Shown in pieces: positions 2,977 to 20,841 of a stretch of DNA of 22,862 bases (within the stretch, counting starts at the first letter, position 1; each line of letters starts with the position of its first letter). This DNA is from a virus. The DNA is taken from IMG/VR virus record IMGVR_UViG_3300025889_001016, positions 1 to 22,862 of that record; one strand, 5' to 3'. The notes below the pieces were generated by a model. It did no database searches. It was not told the origin of the DNA and saw nothing but the letters and a program-made list of their open reading frames with translations. The translations under genes and the position numbers were made by a program.

Positions 2977-3294
2977 GTGGCCGATTTGAAGAAAGTAATA
3001 GAGGAAATAGTTAGAGAAGAGTTGGGTAAAATTATAGAGGAAGGCTCATTAGAAGAGTTTCCTATTGCCGGACCAAGAAAGAAAGTATTAAGAAGAGTTG
3101 GTGGCCAGCTAAAGATTGTAAAGAAAAGAAAGAAGAAGTTGCCTTTGCATCTTAGAAAAGTAAAACCAACTCAACAAAAAAGAATAGCAAGAAAGTCTGC
3201 TATAAAAAGAAAAGGGAAACAAGCCCGTATTACAAAGAAGGCTAAGAAGACTGCAGCCAAGGGTCGTAAAATGGGATTGTATAAGAACCGATGA
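2977..3294 (+). CDS. Lysine/arginine-rich small protein, possibly DNA-binding internal protein
   Basis: A 105-residue protein starting at GTG, chosen because AGGAGA lies 6 bases upstream (2965-2970) and no in-frame ATG fits. Residues 1-26 are acidic and helical (VIEEIVREELGKIIEEG); from about residue 34 to the end it is extremely basic, with runs such as VKKRKKKLPLHLRK. An acidic leader before a polybasic body suits a protein that binds DNA after the leader is removed. The leader holds IEE and LEE triplets that fit the [LI]-x-E rule of T4-type prohead proteases. Both points are inference. Its TGA overlaps the ATG of the next gene (ATGA). Confidence 0.6.
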   Translation: MADLKKVIEEIVREELGKIIEEGSLEEFPIAGPRKKVLRRVGGQLKIVKKRKKKLPLHLRKVKPTQQKRIARKSAIKRKGKQARITKKAKKTAAKGRKMGLYKNR

Positions 3295-3455
3295 AAAACT
3301 ATAATACCGACACACTTATTTGCGGAGTATGTAAAGGAAAGAAGTTGATTATAAATGAATCAACAAAGAAGAATGAAATCTGCCCTAAGTGTCAAGGAAG
3401 CGGCCATCTGAATGAAATCAGTGGCCAAACAAAGAAAACTTTACTCAAAGGTTAG
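3291..3455 (+). CDS. 54-residue four-cysteine zinc-finger protein (DnaJ-type repeats)
   Basis: A short reading frame whose ATG overlaps the previous stop as ATGA. It encodes 54 residues with two C-x2-C-x-G repeats: CGVCKGKK (C11, C14) and CPKCQGSG (C31, C34). The second matches the CxxCxGxG zinc repeat of DnaJ central domains closely. It probably folds round one zinc ion. The TAG ends only two bases before the first base of the tmRNA, so the two share a transcript. The function is unknown; such knuckles bind proteins or nucleic acids. Support for the gene comes from the four ordered cysteines and the stop/start coupling. Confidence 0.7.
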   Translation: MKNYNTDTLICGVCKGKKLIINESTKKNEICPKCQGSGHLNEISGQTKKTLLKG

Positions 3456-3457
3456 TA

Positions 3458-3750
3458 GGGGGTGATTTTAGGATTCGATTGGGGATGTCTACTGATAAAG
3501 GCAAGTGAGAGAAAGTATACTAACTCTCTAAAAAGAGTATACAAACACTAACTGACGAAGAGTTAGAATATAAGATGGCGGCCTAAGAGCCGCCTTCCGT
3601 TTCATAGAAGTCAACTTTATTCTTTTCATACTCTGTGAAACGTCATCTAGAAAAGAAGCATTGTCAATCTTGTGAGTAGTAACTAAACTTGTGTATCTTT
3701 TATTTTTAGCATTCGACAAGACGGGGGTGCAAATCCCCCCACCTCCACCA
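3458..3750 (+). ncRNA. ssrA: Phage-encoded one-piece tmRNA
   Basis: A transfer-messenger RNA, which rescues stalled ribosomes together with SmpB and tags the product for proteolysis. The 5' end GGGGGTG (3458-3464) pairs with CACCTCC before the encoded ACCA (3740-3750) as a 7-bp acceptor stem whose third pair is G·U, the alanyl-tRNA synthetase identity. The conserved GGATTCGA of the D-like region is at 3471-3478. The T arm is GGGGG-TGCAAAT-CCCCC. Helix 2: ATAAAG and GCAAGT (3495-3506) pair with ACTTGT (3687-3692) and CTTTTAT (3697-3703). Pseudoknot 1: GAGAG 3507-3511 with CTCTC 3524-3528, and GTATAC 3515-3520 with GTATAC 3537-3542. A further pseudoknot: CGTTTCA 3598-3604 with TGAAACG 3636-3642, and TCTTTTC 3621-3627 with GAAAAGA 3650-3656. 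The tag frame lies between them. It is 293 bases long, with CCA encoded and no own promoter or terminator seen. Confidence 0.95.
3554..3586 (+). other. tmRNA tag-peptide reading frame (predicted DEELEYKMAA, stop)
   Basis: This is the open frame inside the tmRNA. Reading back from TAA (3584-3586) gives ten codons from GAC 3554, the same length as the E. coli tag ANDENYALAA. The proposed resume codon lies 11 bases after pseudoknot 1 and is preceded by TAACT, which keeps the A at -4 that is important in E. coli (TAGTC). The stop lies in the loop of a GC-rich hairpin, GGCGGC 3577-3582 with GCCGCC 3589-3594, as in other tmRNAs. The C-terminus MAA is close to the LAA degron. The resume codon could instead be ACT at 3551, adding one Thr. 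Confidence 0.75.
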
Positions 3751-3763
3751 TTAAAGAGGTTTT

Positions 3764-4198
3764 ATGTTAGACGATATTTTTAAGAGTATCTATAGCAGTG
3801 TAGTAGAAGCATCAAATACAATAGAGCAACATTGGCTTGGGGAAATAACAGAAGATTATTTTGAGCCAGATGGCACTCCAAAAATGATTGTTGTTAAGTT
3901 ACCAGACTCTAATGGCTCTTTGAAAGATGTGCACATTCCAGCTATAACCCTTGTGCCACATTATGGTTTAGGTATTGATGAGGTTAGTGTAGAGATGAAG
4001 GTAAAACTCTCTACAGGTACAGAAGACAAAAAAGTGAAGGGTTATAGGGAAAGTAAAATAAAAAAGATTATCTCGGATTTTTCAAACAGAGAGGGTGGAA
4101 AAGAGTTAGCCACTATTTCTGTGAAGTTTAAAGGTAAGGAGCCACCAGAGGGTCTTGCCAGAATAAAGGATAACTTAATAAAGTTTATTCCAACATAG
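3764..4198 (+). CDS. DUF2589-like protein, short member
   Basis: A 144-residue protein; ATG 13 bases after the tmRNA CCA end, with AAAGAGG upstream. The order of a helical start, an LPDSNG strand, then an IPAITLVPHYGLGIDEVSVEMKV-type segment at about 65-90 matches my memory of the DUF2589 family, whose members carry a P-x-L-x-L-V-P-x-x-x-L-x-I-x-E core. The C-terminal third has alternating strands and PPEGLARI. It is next to a second, longer member of what looks like the same family. The molecular role of DUF2589 is not known to me. The family assignment is from pattern recognition and should be tested by profile search. Confidence 0.65.
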   Translation: MLDDIFKSIYSSVVEASNTIEQHWLGEITEDYFEPDGTPKMIVVKLPDSNGSLKDVHIPAITLVPHYGLGIDEVSVEMKVKLSTGTEDKKVKGYRESKIKKIISDFSNREGGKELATISVKFKGKEPPEGLARIKDNLIKFIPT

Positions 4199-4208
4199 GA
4201 GAAGTATT

Positions 4209-4862
4209 ATGGCAATCTCAGATGCATTTGTAGGTTTACCAATAGAAACACTTATTCTTGACCCCATTCTAGCAGCATCAAAAGGTCAGGCAGCGTTAGC
4301 TCAAAACACTTTGGACTTTGTAGAGGCACTTGCCTTTGAAGAGGCAGAAGATGGAAAGCCAAACGAAAGACAAGCAAAAGTATTAAACATCAACCTTGAT
4401 AGATTGGCAAACACACCCGAAGGTGAGTTGACAAACGTAACACAGAAAATACAAATGCCTCTTTTGCCCTTGGTAACTATCCCAAATTTTACTCTGGATA
4501 CAATGGAAGTTGACTTTATGATGGAAGTAAAGACTAGTGAATCTTCCACTGATAAATCATCTTCTTCTAAGTCAAGTGAGACAGGCTCTAAGTCTAGTGG
4601 GTCTTTTTCAGCTAGTTATGGATTTTGGGGAGCAAAGGTTAAAATGTCTGGCTCAGTTGAGAGAACATCAAAGACAACTGGCACAGTTGCTTCATCAAAG
4701 GAAACACAAAGAACTTCTGACCAATCAGCAAAATATAACATCAATGTTAAGGCAAAACAAATGGAACCAGCAGAAGGTATGTCTCGTTTTACACAGATAC
4801 TTGCTAGTGTTATTGAGCCTATCAATGTAACAACAGATACCGCTGCTAACCCAGCAAACTAA
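4209..4862 (+). CDS. DUF2589-like protein, long member with serine-rich insert
   Basis: A 217-residue protein with TAGGAG before the ATG and a 10-base gap from its partner. Residues 10-40 (LPIETLILDPILAASKGQAA) fit the typical N-terminus of DUF2589 proteins. MPLLPLVTIPNFTLDTMEVD at about 83-102 is the same core as in the short member. Residues about 112-135 are a serine/lysine-rich linker, followed by a VKMSGSVERT-type beta segment and a C-terminal IPINV-like strand region. The paired genes suggest two subunits of one assembly. Whether it is a virion part or acts in the cell is not visible. Confidence 0.65.
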   Translation: MAISDAFVGLPIETLILDPILAASKGQAALAQNTLDFVEALAFEEAEDGKPNERQAKVLNINLDRLANTPEGELTNVTQKIQMPLLPLVTIPNFTLDTMEVDFMMEVKTSESSTDKSSSSKSSETGSKSSGSFSASYGFWGAKVKMSGSVERTSKTTGTVASSKETQRTSDQSAKYNINVKAKQMEPAEGMSRFTQILASVIEPINVTTDTAANPAN

Positions 4863-7591: not shown

Positions 7592-8134
7592 ATGAAACTA
7601 AGTAATGTGTTTGACGATGACAAACAAAAAATTTTAGAGATAGCTTTGTTTATGTCAATGAAGCCAGACCAACTAAATGAAAATGTTGGTGGTGGTGTAT
7701 TGAGGATGGCAAAGAAGGCTGGTCTAAACATTAAGAGCAGCAGTGGTAGAGGTTTGTTATCTATCTTATCAAAGGCCGGTAAATACATGGGTGAAGTTAT
7801 GTATTACGCTTTCAAGGCTCATGGTGGAGATAGAGAGGCAAGAGTGAAACTAAAAGAATTGTTACAGAAAAGAGTCAGTAAGGAAGATTTTATTGATTTC
7901 CTTTTGAAACTTGATGCCGTAACATTTTCTGCTATCACTGGCCCATTAAACATAATAGATGCTATTATGGGTTGGAATACTGTCGCTAACATTAGAAAAA
8001 ACGCAGCCAAGGTTGATGATAGAATAGCCAATGCCATTGATTCTCTGCTATCTTCTGCAGAAGATTTGCCAGACAAGATAAGAAAAAGAGTTATGACTAA
8101 CATTTCAAAATTAAAAAAGATAGTTGGAGTATAA
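7592..8134 (+). CDS. MKLS-leader protein, helical, unrecognised
   Basis: A 180-residue protein with AGAAGG before the ATG. It begins MKLSNVFDDDKQKILEIA, the shared leader, with ILE and later LNE triplets that could be prohead-protease sites. The body is helical and basic (KAGKYMGEVMYYAFKAHGG, VKLKELLQKRVSKEDFIDFLLKLD), with a moderately hydrophobic stretch near residues 105-125 that may be a buried helix. No known family comes to mind. An internal head protein is inferred only from the leader. The ribosome site of the next gene lies inside its 3' end. Confidence 0.6.
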   Translation: MKLSNVFDDDKQKILEIALFMSMKPDQLNENVGGGVLRMAKKAGLNIKSSSGRGLLSILSKAGKYMGEVMYYAFKAHGGDREARVKLKELLQKRVSKEDFIDFLLKLDAVTFSAITGPLNIIDAIMGWNTVANIRKNAAKVDDRIANAIDSLLSSAEDLPDKIRKRVMTNISKLKKIVGV

Positions 8135-8135
8135 A

Positions 8136-8855
8136 ATGAAACTTGCTGATTTATTTAATGAAGGTGTAAATGACCCAGGCATTTTCAAAGCTGTGTTTTT
8201 AGCTGGAGGGCCAGGCAGTGGGAAGTCTTTTGTGGGCGGCGAAGTTTTTGCTATACCAAGCGCAAATTCATTTTCGCCTGCTGGTTTAAAGGTGGTCAAC
8301 TCAGACCCCGAATTTGAATACTTCCTAAAGAAACAAGGCATTGACCCAAAGACTTTGGGAAAGATGACCGACAAACAATTTCAAAAAGTAACAACAGGGC
8401 CAGAGTCACCAAGAGAAAAAGCCAAAAGAATAAAGGATGCGAAAGAAAAATTGTATGTGCATGGTCGTTTGGGTTTGTTGATTGACGGCACAGGTGATGA
8501 TTATTCAAAGATAAAAAAGAAGGTAGTTGAGCTTAGAAAACTAGGTTATGACTGCTATATGATTTTTGTTAATACTTCATTAGAGGTTGCTTTGGAAAGA
8601 AATGCTGCTCGTGATAGAGTATTACCAGAGAAATTAGTGACAAAGATTTGGAAAGATGTACAGAAAAACATAGGTAGATTTCAAGGTTTATTTAAGGGTC
8701 AAATGATTATCATTGATAATAGTGACCGTGTAATAGTAAAATCTGGAAAACCAACCTTTGGTAAGGTGGTTGACAGAATGATAAAGCAGTTTGTAAACTC
8801 ACCAATCAAAAGTAAGATTGCCAAAGATTGGATTAAATCTCAAAGAGGAAAATAG
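8136..8855 (+). CDS. P-loop kinase (zeta-toxin/polynucleotide-kinase-like) with MKL leader
   Basis: A 239-residue protein. The ATG at 8136 is chosen over an upstream TTG because TTGGAG (8124-8129) lies 6 bases before it. Residues 1-10 (MKLADLFNEG) are the shared leader. The kinase body follows: Walker A GGPGSGKS at 24-31, NSD at 55-57, LLIDGTGDD at 114-122 as the Walker B region, and an ERNAARDR helix at 154-161 as the arginine-bearing lid. This layout fits the AAA_33/zeta-toxin branch of P-loop kinases, which phosphorylate nucleotides, polynucleotide ends or UDP-sugars. The substrate cannot be read from sequence. The leader suggests the enzyme may travel inside the head. Confidence 0.82.
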   Translation: MKLADLFNEGVNDPGIFKAVFLAGGPGSGKSFVGGEVFAIPSANSFSPAGLKVVNSDPEFEYFLKKQGIDPKTLGKMTDKQFQKVTTGPESPREKAKRIKDAKEKLYVHGRLGLLIDGTGDDYSKIKKKVVELRKLGYDCYMIFVNTSLEVALERNAARDRVLPEKLVTKIWKDVQKNIGRFQGLFKGQMIIIDNSDRVIVKSGKPTFGKVVDRMIKQFVNSPIKSKIAKDWIKSQRGK

Positions 8856-17221: not shown

Positions 17222-18877
17222 ATGACAGAAGAAGAGCTAAAAGAATACATAAAGTGTAGAAAAGACCCTATATACTTTTTCAAAACTTATGGCAAGGTTA
17301 GACACCCAAAGAAGGGTTTGATGCCATTTGAGTTGTATGACTTCCAAGAAGATACACTCAATGAGTTTTTAGACAAGTCATACAATGTTATTCTAAAGGC
17401 TAGACAGTTAGGTATTAGTACCTTGTGTGCAGCCTATGCCGCATGGATGGCCAACTTCTTCAAAGACAAAGAGATTTTTATCCTTGCCACAAAGAGAGAC
17501 ACTGCAACAAACCTAGTTGATAAGGTAAGAGTTTTCTTGGAAGAAGTGCCAGACTTTCTGAAGAGTAACTTTCTAGTTGATAACAGACAAAGTATTGAGT
17601 TAGAGAATGGTAGTAAGATAAAGGCGGGCGCTACAGGGTCTAACTCAAAAGATGCAGCACGCTCAGAGGCACTTAGTTTATTGATTATTGACGAGGCTGC
17701 TTTTATCAAAGGTATGGATACTATTTGGGTTGCTGCTCAACCTACACTATCTACTGGTGGTGATTGTATTGTGTTGTCTTCACCAAACGGTATTGGTAAC
17801 TGGTTTCACAAAACATACATTGAGGCAGAAGCAGGCACTACAGAAAAAGTTGGTAATGCTACAATCTCATTCAACCCAATAAGACTACCTTGGAATCTTC
17901 ACCCCGACAGAGATGCTGAGTGGGGTAGGTTAGAAAAAAGAAAAATAGGTGACCAAGCATTTGCACAAGAGCATGATTGTGACTTTCTGCAGTCTGGTAA
18001 CAATGTTGTGAGTGTGAAGGCATTACAATGGTATGAGGAACACCCAACAGAAGAAGAACCCGCTGACGATGGTTACAGACCCTTTGTGAGGGAGCCGGAA
18101 GAAAAGACTTGGGTAGATAAAGGTCTATGGATTTGGAAATATCCCGACTACACAAAACAATATCTTATCTCTGCTGACGTTGCTCGTGGAGATGGAAAAG
18201 ACTACTCTGCTTTTCATGTTATAGATATAGAAAACTATGAGCAGGTTGCTGAGTATAAAGGAAAAGTAAACACTGATGCTTATTCCCACCTTATACATAA
18301 TACCGCTGTCCAATATAACAACGCTTACATCATAGTTGAAAATGCTTCAATGGGTCATCATGTTGTTATGAAAATCTTGGAGATGGAATACAAGAATATG
18401 TATTGGACAGTAAAAGATTTAACAAAAATACATGAAAGTAACGCTAACCAATTACACTATGATATTTACAATGTGCCGAAAAATGCAGTGCCTGGCTTTA
18501 CGATGAGCATGAAGAGTAGACCAGCGTGTATTGCAAGAATGGAAGAAGACTTACGCACACACGATTTTACTTTACATTCTAAAAGAACTATAGCGGAATT
18601 AGAAACTTTTGTTTTTCATAATGGAAAGCCCGAAGCTCTTGCAAGCTATAATGATGATTTAGTAATGTCTTTATCAATGGGTATGTATGTTAGAAATACT
18701 ACTCTAAAATTTAACTCTCAAGATGAAGAGGTTACAAGAGAAATGTTATCGGGTCTCAATTTTAATAATACACCATTTGAGTTTGGTGTCTACGGCAGCC
18801 AAAATAACAAGAGTGATGGTGAGTATACTTTTGATGTTGGCAATGGTCAGAAAGAGAGTATGAGATGGCTGATTTAA
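17222..18877 (+). CDS. Terminase large subunit (T4 gp17-like)
   Basis: The packaging motor: an ATPase that drives DNA into the prohead through the portal, and a nuclease that cuts the concatemer. The 551 residues hold the full set: Walker A ARQLGIST at 60-67, Walker B LLIIDE at 153-158, coupling motif SSPNG at 186-190, and a nuclease domain with D319 in ISADVARGDGKDYS, E373 in IIVENASMG and the D478-D479 pair in SYNDDLVMS. Length is a little under T4 gp17. The N-terminus (MTEEELKEYIKCRKDPIYFF) is standard for the group. No small terminase is recognisable nearby. All expected catalytic residues are present, so it should be active. Confidence 0.96.
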   Translation: MTEEELKEYIKCRKDPIYFFKTYGKVRHPKKGLMPFELYDFQEDTLNEFLDKSYNVILKARQLGISTLCAAYAAWMANFFKDKEIFILATKRDTATNLVDKVRVFLEEVPDFLKSNFLVDNRQSIELENGSKIKAGATGSNSKDAARSEALSLLIIDEAAFIKGMDTIWVAAQPTLSTGGDCIVLSSPNGIGNWFHKTYIEAEAGTTEKVGNATISFNPIRLPWNLHPDRDAEWGRLEKRKIGDQAFAQEHDCDFLQSGNNVVSVKALQWYEEHPTEEEPADDGYRPFVREPEEKTWVDKGLWIWKYPDYTKQYLISADVARGDGKDYSAFHVIDIENYEQVAEYKGKVNTDAYSHLIHNTAVQYNNAYIIVENASMGHHVVMKILEMEYKNMYWTVKDLTKIHESNANQLHYDIYNVPKNAVPGFTMSMKSRPACIARMEEDLRTHDFTLHSKRTIAELETFVFHNGKPEALASYNDDLVMSLSMGMYVRNTTLKFNSQDEEVTREMLSGLNFNNTPFEFGVYGSQNNKSDGEYTFDVGNGQKESMRWLI

Positions 18878-19083: not shown

Positions 19084-20841
19084 ATGGCAGATAGGTTTGA
19101 CATACTAAGAAGGCTTCTAAGAGGCGGCTCTGCACAGTATAAAGTACCAACAGAGCGGCCAGGCAGTAATGCACAAAAAAGAGCCTTTGATAGTTTTCAG
19201 AAAGCCTCACAAAGTTTGTATGGCGAAGGACTAGTAGGTGGCACAGAGCGTCTTGATAGAATAAGAGACTACGAAGAGATGGACCACTATCCAGAGATTA
19301 CAAGAGCGCTGGACATTTATGCTGACGATAGCACAACCTATTCTGAAAATGGAAAAAGTGTAGAAATAGTTTCAGACGATGATAAGATAGTATCTGAGTT
19401 AGAAGAGTTGTTTTATCAAAGACTAGACATTGACTTTCACCTTTGGACTTGGATAAGAAATATGTGCAAGTATGGTGACCATTTCAATCTACTAGACATT
19501 GTAAACAAAGAGGGTGTGCTTGGCGCCATTGCTCTACCAGTTGGTGAGATAGAAAGAGAAGAAGGATATAATAACGACCCAAACAGTTTACGTTTCAAGT
19601 GGCTAACACAGGGCAACACTGTATTTGAAAACTATCAAGTATCACACCTAAGAATCCTTGGTGATGATAGATTCTTGCCCTATGGTCGCTCGGTATTAGA
19701 TTCATCACGTAAAGTTTGGAAACAACTATTGATGGCCGAAGATGCCATGTTGATTTATAGAATTAGTAGAGCACCAGAGCGTAGAGTGTTTTATGTTGAT
19801 GTAGGAAACATTCCCCCCAAGGATGTTGAAAACTACATGCAACAGGCTAGAGATAAACTAAAAAGATTGCCTAATGTAAATCAATCAAACGGACAAGTTG
19901 ACCTACGATACAACCCCGAATCAATACTTGAAGATTTCTTTATTCCCGTCCGTGGAGACAGAGGAAGTAGAATAGAAACATTGCCTGGCGGTGAGAATGC
20001 TGCTGCTATTGAAGACATTCAGTATCTACAAAACAAGTTGTTTATTTCGTTGGGTGTGCCAAAGTCATACCTTACAGCCGAAGAAGACTTGAGTGGTAAG
20101 TCAACACTAGCACAAGAAGACATTAAGTTTGCTCGGACAATACAAAGAATACAAAAAATCATCATCAGTGAGTTGGCCAAGATAAGTTTGATACACTTGT
20201 ATCTTAGAGGATACGATGATGTATCCATTTACAACTTTGATTTGAAACTAACCAACCCATCTACAGTAACAGAGATGATGCAACTTGATTTGATGGACAA
20301 AAGGTTTGGTGCAGCAAGAGACATTGCTGATTCAGACTTGATTTCTAACGAGTATGTCCAGAAGTCAATACTAAAACTTTCTGATAGTGAGATTGCTAAT
20401 ATAAAGGTTGACAGACAAAGAGAGGCATCAGAGAAGTTTATTGTTGACCAACTTGAGCAAGGTGAAAGTGCAGTAGGTGGAGGCGAAGAAGGTCAACCAC
20501 CGGCGCCACCAGCTAGTAATGAGGACGATGATAATAGTAGTAACGAAACAAAAATCCAAAAGAGAAACAAATCAAGAGATATTGCTAAGGACATGATGCC
20601 TTACGACCCAACAGGAACAAGAGAGTTGCCTGGCTATCCAAAAGATTATACCTATAATGAAACAGGTATAACTAGTAAGGGCAATCAGAAGAAACAAAGA
20701 CCAGACATTTTAGATAAGACTATTTCAGACATTATGAAATTCAATGTTGAGTCAAATAGTATGTTGGAGTCGTTAAAAGAGGATAAAAACGAAGAAAAGT
20801 TAGACAATTCTACACTAAAAGGTATCGTAAGTAACCTTTAG
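19084..20841 (+). CDS. Portal protein (T4 gp20-like)
   Basis: The portal ring at the unique vertex, through which terminase pumps DNA and to which the tail attaches. The 585 residues follow the gp20 pattern: DYEEMDHYPEITRALDIYAD at 62-81, the wing region, then AMLIYRISRAPERRVFYVDV at 221-240 and PPKDVENYMQQARDKLKRLP, the crown/stem helices, and near residues 320-360 FISLGVPKSYLTAEEDLSG with a KFARTIQRIQKI helix. The C-terminal 110 residues are low-complexity and acidic, with basic patches. ATG 19084 lies 6 bases after the previous stop. A terminator-like hairpin overlaps its last codons. Confidence 0.95.
   Translation: MADRFDILRRLLRGGSAQYKVPTERPGSNAQKRAFDSFQKASQSLYGEGLVGGTERLDRIRDYEEMDHYPEITRALDIYADDSTTYSENGKSVEIVSDDDKIVSELEELFYQRLDIDFHLWTWIRNMCKYGDHFNLLDIVNKEGVLGAIALPVGEIEREEGYNNDPNSLRFKWLTQGNTVFENYQVSHLRILGDDRFLPYGRSVLDSSRKVWKQLLMAEDAMLIYRISRAPERRVFYVDVGNIPPKDVENYMQQARDKLKRLPNVNQSNGQVDLRYNPESILEDFFIPVRGDRGSRIETLPGGENAAAIEDIQYLQNKLFISLGVPKSYLTAEEDLSGKSTLAQEDIKFARTIQRIQKIIISELAKISLIHLYLRGYDDVSIYNFDLKLTNPSTVTEMMQLDLMDKRFGAARDIADSDLISNEYVQKSILKLSDSEIANIKVDRQREASEKFIVDQLEQGESAVGGGEEGQPPAPPASNEDDDNSSNETKIQKRNKSRDIAKDMMPYDPTGTRELPGYPKDYTYNETGITSKGNQKKQRPDILDKTISDIMKFNVESNSMLESLKEDKNEEKLDNSTLKGIVSNL

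Follow-up and report, generated by a model that had tools for sequence, protein, structure and literature searches.

Genomic context of the tmRNA gene

The window analysed here is a stretch of 22,862 nucleotides (positions 1 to 22,862 of the IMG/VR virus record IMGVR_UViG_3300025889_001016) and carries a one-piece tmRNA (ssrA) gene of 293 nt with an encoded CCA at positions 3458 to 3750 of the plus strand. The gene was assigned by its full-length match to Rfam model RF00023 and by covariation across 11 phage homologues. In the cmscan search of the whole window, RF00023 tmRNA was the single RNA found (3458-3750, plus strand; model positions 1-374 of 374; 83.1 bits, with a gathering score of 47; E 3.6e-31). 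The match is collinear and the acceptor strands lie at both gene ends, so the gene does not have the permuted two-piece form. The minimum free energy, calculated with the pseudoknots left out of the count, was 2.3 sd below that of shuffled sequences. The initial annotation had proposed Infernal or ARAGORN as a check; Infernal returned the full-length gene with its tag frame, whereas ARAGORN called neither tmRNA nor tRNA in the window. Since seven other homologues were missed by ARAGORN as well, the blank result was regarded as a failure of sensitivity and not as a refutation. With six of the 14 tmRNAs of the clade called, ARAGORN-based surveys undercount phage tmRNAs.

The window encodes a T4-like terminase large subunit (17222-18877, plus strand; phrog_2, E 1.6e-50) and a T4 gp20-like portal protein (19084-20841, plus strand; phrog_213, E 6.3e-77), and judged by these two genes the contig is a fragment of a T4-like phage. 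Together with the full-length RF00023 match, they bear out the earlier claim of a complete, one-piece, phage-borne tmRNA. A Shine-Dalgarno-like motif was present at 16 of the 29 ORF starts examined, compared with a background of 9%. Among sequenced phages, Microcystis phage Mel-JY01 had the nearest terminase (45%), followed by Flavobacterium phage immuto (43.5%). The terminase was also tried as an indicator of the host and rejected, as its matches in Flavobacteriales (46%), Chitinophagaceae (44%) and Pelagibacteraceae (42%) bins were too distant and too mixed; the glycosyltransferase profile had no relatives in 84,980 genomes.

Upstream of the tmRNA gene lie a conserved 105-aa Lys/Arg-rich ORF (2977-3294, plus strand), which served as upstream marker, and a 54-aa zinc-ribbon/DnaJ-like CxxC ORF (3291-3455, plus strand), kept in the related contigs L002 and L003, with 2 nt between its stop codon and the tmRNA. 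Downstream, a DUF2589 ORF (3764-4198, plus strand; PF11655, E 5.3e-16) starts with an ATG 13 nt after the CCA, preceded by a GAGG Shine-Dalgarno motif, and is followed by a second DUF2589 ORF (4209-4862, plus strand; PF11655, E 1.7e-27). This tandem pair (3764-4862) directly 3′ of the tmRNA is conserved in the relatives and had no match in the sequenced-phage collection. Promoter-like matches did not exceed those in shuffled sequences, and a T4 late-promoter-like TATAAAT at 3350 was discarded because L002 and L003 lacked a counterpart at the corresponding position. Based on the spacing of 2 and 13 nt and on the lack of a promoter above chance, the tmRNA would be co-transcribed within the surrounding operon.

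Two further products of the window were recorded. The glycosyltransferase-like protein encoded at 1350-2675 (phrog_7162) is the best IMG/VR marker of the phage clade. The ORF at 8124-8855 likely encodes a P-loop kinase: it matches phrog_12810 and, with 29.9 bits and above the cut-off, the zeta-toxin-type kinase domain PF06414.

Distribution among related viral contigs

Relatives were gathered by searching with the neighbouring proteins, which yielded viral contigs of the same gene order. A homologous tmRNA was present in 14 viral contigs including the window, and in 12 of them it occupied the same slot, shortly after the glycosyltransferase/basic-protein block. Where the flanks were read (window, L002 and L003), the tmRNA lay exactly between the small zinc-ribbon ORF and the DUF2589 gene; in the more distant G024 and G026 the distance from the glycosyltransferase to the downstream tmRNA was about 1.7 and 5.7 kb. 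The RF00023 gathering score was passed by 12 of the 14 homologues, while G024 scored 40.8 and L003 was undetected. Synteny and BLAST led to L003 and L127, of which L127 was afterwards recovered by cmscan with 54.4 bits. No tmRNA was present at the slot in L135 and L138, so the gene is dispensable in the wider group. The contigs add an uncultured T4-like clade in which the tmRNA is apparently a conserved operon gene. In agreement with the initial annotation, no SmpB gene was found in the window, nor was one found in 16 related viral contigs (17 records, all of them fragments); reliance on host SmpB is likely, the search having covered genome fragments only.

Structure of the tRNA-like domain

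The 5′ strand of the acceptor stem, GGGGGTG (3458-3464, plus strand), holds the G3 of the G3-U70 pair and pairs with CACCTCC at 3740-3746; this 3′ strand is followed by the discriminator A and CCA (3740-3750, plus strand, from the RF00023 match and direct listing). The D-loop analogue GGATTCGA (3471-3478, plus strand) was placed by alignment of the sequence to the RF00023 consensus, and the T arm GGGGG-TGCAAAT-CCCCC (3723-3739, plus strand) by the RF00023 match. Helix 2, with its 5′ side at 3479-3506 (plus strand) and its 3′ side at about 3686-3719, was taken from the RNAalifold consensus and shows compensatory changes. In this consensus, derived from an alignment of 11 homologues in which PK1 was not fully displayable and was therefore checked by hand, 31 of 47 pairs carried double-sided compensatory changes, and such changes support the acceptor stem, the T stem, helix 2 and PK1. 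Within the acceptor stem, pairs 4 to 6 covary (GC, CG, UA and AU alternatives) and pairs 1, 2, 3 (G-U) and 7 are invariant in all 11 sequences; direct listing showed that G3-U70, the alanine identity element, is kept in all 14 homologues.

The T loop TGCAAAT, which had been described as an unusual replacement of the common loop, is indeed present, but it is no oddity among phage tmRNAs: in a pattern scan it was frequent in phage-borne tmRNAs, with at least 119 matching IMG/VR stretches. About 48 of the 80 TGCAAAT-pattern loci listed carried a permuted two-piece tmRNA according to ARAGORN, and among these listed matches the loci called by ARAGORN were mostly permuted two-piece genes. Several homologues depart from the consensus in the T loop or D loop (GGCAGTA in L003, GGCAGAG in L127), and the T arms of L152, L149 and L155 are irregular. 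Such elbow loops could mean weaker SmpB or elbow contacts.

Structure of the mRNA-like half and the tag

Upstream of the tag lies an H-type pseudoknot, PK1 (3507-3542, plus strand), with stem 1 at 3507-3511/3524-3528 (GAGAG/CTCTC) and stem 2 at 3515-3521/3536-3542 (GTATACT/AGTATAC). Both stems covary: across the clade stem 1 is formed by GAGAG/CTCTC, CGGAG/CTCCG, CGAAG/CTTCG or AGAGG/CCTCT, and stem 2 by GTATACT/AGTATAC, ACATAC/GTATGT, GATGCTT/AAGTATC, TGATAG/CTATCA or GTCAGTT/AACTGAC. In two homologues (L155:1501-1813, plus strand; L156:1501-1802, minus strand) PK1 is apparently missing and a short A-rich linker joins helix 2 and the tag; their tags are DETYALAA and DDSYRMAA, and the A at -4 is kept.

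The resume codon was placed via the RF00023 alignment and this A at -4 (3550, plus strand), which is found in all 14 homologues and is equivalent to E. coli A86, a nucleotide that is needed for activity and sets the frame (PMC2481249). The tag frame (3554-3586, plus strand) reads GAC GAA GAG TTA GAA TAT AAG ATG GCG GCC TAA and encodes DEELEYKMAA*, a tag common to the window, L153 and L154. The other tags of the clade are DETVEYKMAA, DENTVEYKLAA, DETQEYRLAA, AEE[T/Q]TEYALAA and GEETHQYKMAA, besides DETYALAA and DDSYRMAA. Among eight lineages, the first and second positions of the Tyr, Ala and Ala codons are invariant while the third position varies in all three, and the Met/Leu codon always has T at its second position. 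This restriction of variation to third positions is a protein-coding signature, read from the aligned sequences, on the degron end of the tag. The pairing of helix 5 overlaps the Ala codons, so their constraint is partly structural; the Tyr codon is not part of this stem. The conserved Y-x-[M/L]-A-A end speaks for the importance of tagging itself, and the signature indicates that the phages keep the tagging function and not ribosome release alone.

The tags also bear on the idea that an altered tag, with K/R before M/L-A-A, is the main purpose of the gene and sends tagged proteins to another fate than that of host-tagged proteins, such as slower degradation or another protease. The shared Y-[K/R/A]-[M/L]-A-A pattern with phage-specific N-terminal parts, and the coding constraint at the C-terminal degron end, would fit such retargeting. 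However, A-A is the standard end of a tmRNA degron, and plain YALAA occurs in other phages of the clade; retargeting as the main purpose was judged quite unlikely.

The TAA stop codon lies in the loop of the helix 5 hairpin (3577-3594, plus strand; GGCGGC-CTAAGA-GCCGCC). It is followed by a second H-type pseudoknot, PK2 (3598-3657, plus strand), with stem 1 at 3598-3604/3636-3642 (CGTTTCA/TGAAACG) and stem 2 at 3620-3627/3650-3657 (TTCTTTTC/GAAAAGAA). The stem 2 pattern had one match with none expected; it is nearly invariant and gives little covariation signal, while stem 1 varies compensatorily. PK3 and PK4 are absent, the stretch 3658-3685 being too short for either in the RF00023 alignment and the sequence. 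Four pseudoknots are typical of tmRNA but not universal, so this number is not strictly defining. Each element named in the initial annotation (G-U at acceptor pair 3, CCA, GGATTCGA, T arm, helix 2, PK1, the tag stop and PK2) was thus recovered.

The completeness of this half weighs on two other explanations. The RNA might act as a decoy that competes with host tmRNA for SmpB or the ribosome and performs no full trans-translation. Such a role has been proposed for an RNA of mycobacteriophage DS6A, a precedent that consists of the tRNA-like domain (TLD) only and inhibits tmRNA (PMC4131195, PMC11915505); the divergent elbow loops and a tag-less 112-nt tmRNA-like gene (L177) in a huge phage whose terminase is related point the same way. 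A decoy would, however, need no PK1, resume determinant, coding-constrained tag, helix 5 or PK2, all of which the window gene keeps, and this explanation is considered very improbable. The second explanation is a host ssrA fragment left by imprecise excision, an att-site scar, or a piece of host DNA misassembled into the phage. It draws on the frequent use of ssrA for integration and on the ssrA fragments that prophages carry (PMC9004378). Against it, the gene is full-length and sits between phage ORFs at spacings of 2 and 13 nt, 12 viral contigs have it in the same slot and show compensatory evolution, and a PHROGs scan of 20 ORF products of the window gave no integrase hit. With the gene complete and synteny conserved, the att-scar and contamination readings were dropped, and an origin of this kind is exceedingly improbable. 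On the evidence of compensatory stem changes, the invariant G3·U70 and frame-setting A, and the coding signature of the tag, the window gene is a complete tmRNA that is maintained across the phage clade, neither a relic nor an att scar.

Proposed function

Very probably, this T4-like phage gene encodes a functional one-piece tmRNA that acts in ordinary trans-translation with host factors. RNase P and 3′ nucleases of the host would excise the tmRNA from the operon transcript, and host AlaRS would charge it with alanine via G3-U70. With host SmpB, it would enter ribosomes stalled on broken mRNA and be swapped in as message, upon which A+DEELEYKMAA would be added, translation would terminate at TAA and the ribosome would be freed; the tagged product would be marked for host proteases such as ClpXP. 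Alanylation, the use of SmpB, tagging and proteolysis are predicted here from established tmRNA biology. The most likely benefit is that rescue capacity is upheld while phage and host mRNAs undergo degradation in infection; the benefits named in the initial annotation, the freeing of ribosomes late in infection and the retagging of products, are plausible.

Divergence of the tRNA-like domain

The TLD and the mRNA-like body were compared between close homologues, with segment boundaries set by hand, irregular T arms in L149 and L152, and about three independent events in total. Identities in body and TLD were 97% and 81-84% between the window and L153, 94% and 80-83% between L148 and L150, and 90-91% and 70-73% between L149 and L150; the exception was L153 with L154 (97% and 100%). 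A Microbacterium control showed the opposite to the clade, with a mean TLD identity of 97.9% where bodies were 93-97% identical (30 pairs). The tmRNA of L152 (617-906, minus strand) is a mosaic in which the mRNA-like body of one allele type is joined to the TLD of another: its body is 95% identical to that of L149, its TLD 44% identical to that of L149 and 78% to those of L153 and L154 (window type). Lower conservation of the TLD than of the body between close homologues is taken as a lead and not as a result. The further proposal that selection is inverted in this clade, with fast TLD turnover including wholesale swaps (L152) and a conserved mRNA-like half, is judged unlikely. If true, phages would refit or exchange the end that faces SmpB, AlaRS and EF-Tu in order to suit their hosts or to evade a host factor, and the fast-changing TLD would provide a natural series for probing what SmpB and the ribosome tolerate.

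Comparison with other phage-encoded tmRNAs

The statement that a few phages carry tmRNA understates the record, as tmRNA has been reported in 402 of 18,146 phage genomes, about 2.3% (PMC9004378). Carriers include Bxz1, Wildcat and Bacillus phage G (PMC4131195), and huge phages with both tmRNA and SmpB are known (PMC7162821). The sequence of the window tmRNA is new, while phage-borne tmRNA as a kind is already published. Compared with 50,697 phage records, it gave short matches only, mainly in the 3′ tRNA-like end. The literature search retrieved nothing on PK1 or the T loop of phage-encoded tmRNA or on jumbo-phage rescue.

With bacterial one-piece tmRNAs of the RF00023 type, the gene shares G3-U70, CCA, the D-loop analogue, the T arm, helix 2, PK1, the tag frame, helix 5, PK2 and the full-length model match. 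It differs in its two pseudoknots, where four are typical (PMC11915505), in its TGCAAAT T loop and DEELEYKMAA tag and in being phage-borne. The ssrA genes of the Bxz1 group, Wildcat and Bacillus phage G are likewise complete tmRNAs in tailed phages, whereas the window gene is part of a distinct T4-like clade and occupies a slot conserved within that clade. The marine myophages Melnitz and Pelagibacter phage Mosig also represent T4-like phages with an encoded tmRNA, and Mosig has 3′ TLD sequence in common with the window. The Melnitz tmRNA, however, is permuted, two-piece and accompanied by a glutamine riboswitch (PMC9004378), while the window gene is one-piece and cmscan found no Rfam riboswitch match in the window. 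The DS6A RNA is a phage-encoded tmRNA-type TLD too, but it is devoid of the mRNA-like half that the window gene keeps under selection, including a tag frame with its coding signature.

Other tmRNA-like genes were noted in phage sequences. The 112-nt gene L177:1501-1612 (LR756508.1 414804-414915; RF00023, 58.2 bits) has no tag frame, forms an acceptor stem GGGGGCG/CGCCTCC with G-U at pair 3 and resembles the TLD-only RNA of DS6A; its carrier is a 484-kb huge phage with a second, 447-nt tmRNA-like gene (L175). In a Flavobacteriales MAG, two tmRNAs were seen: a one-piece gene on a phage-like contig (L256:7011-7352, tag ADTSVLALAA) and the bacterial tmRNA of the bin (tag GENNYALAA).
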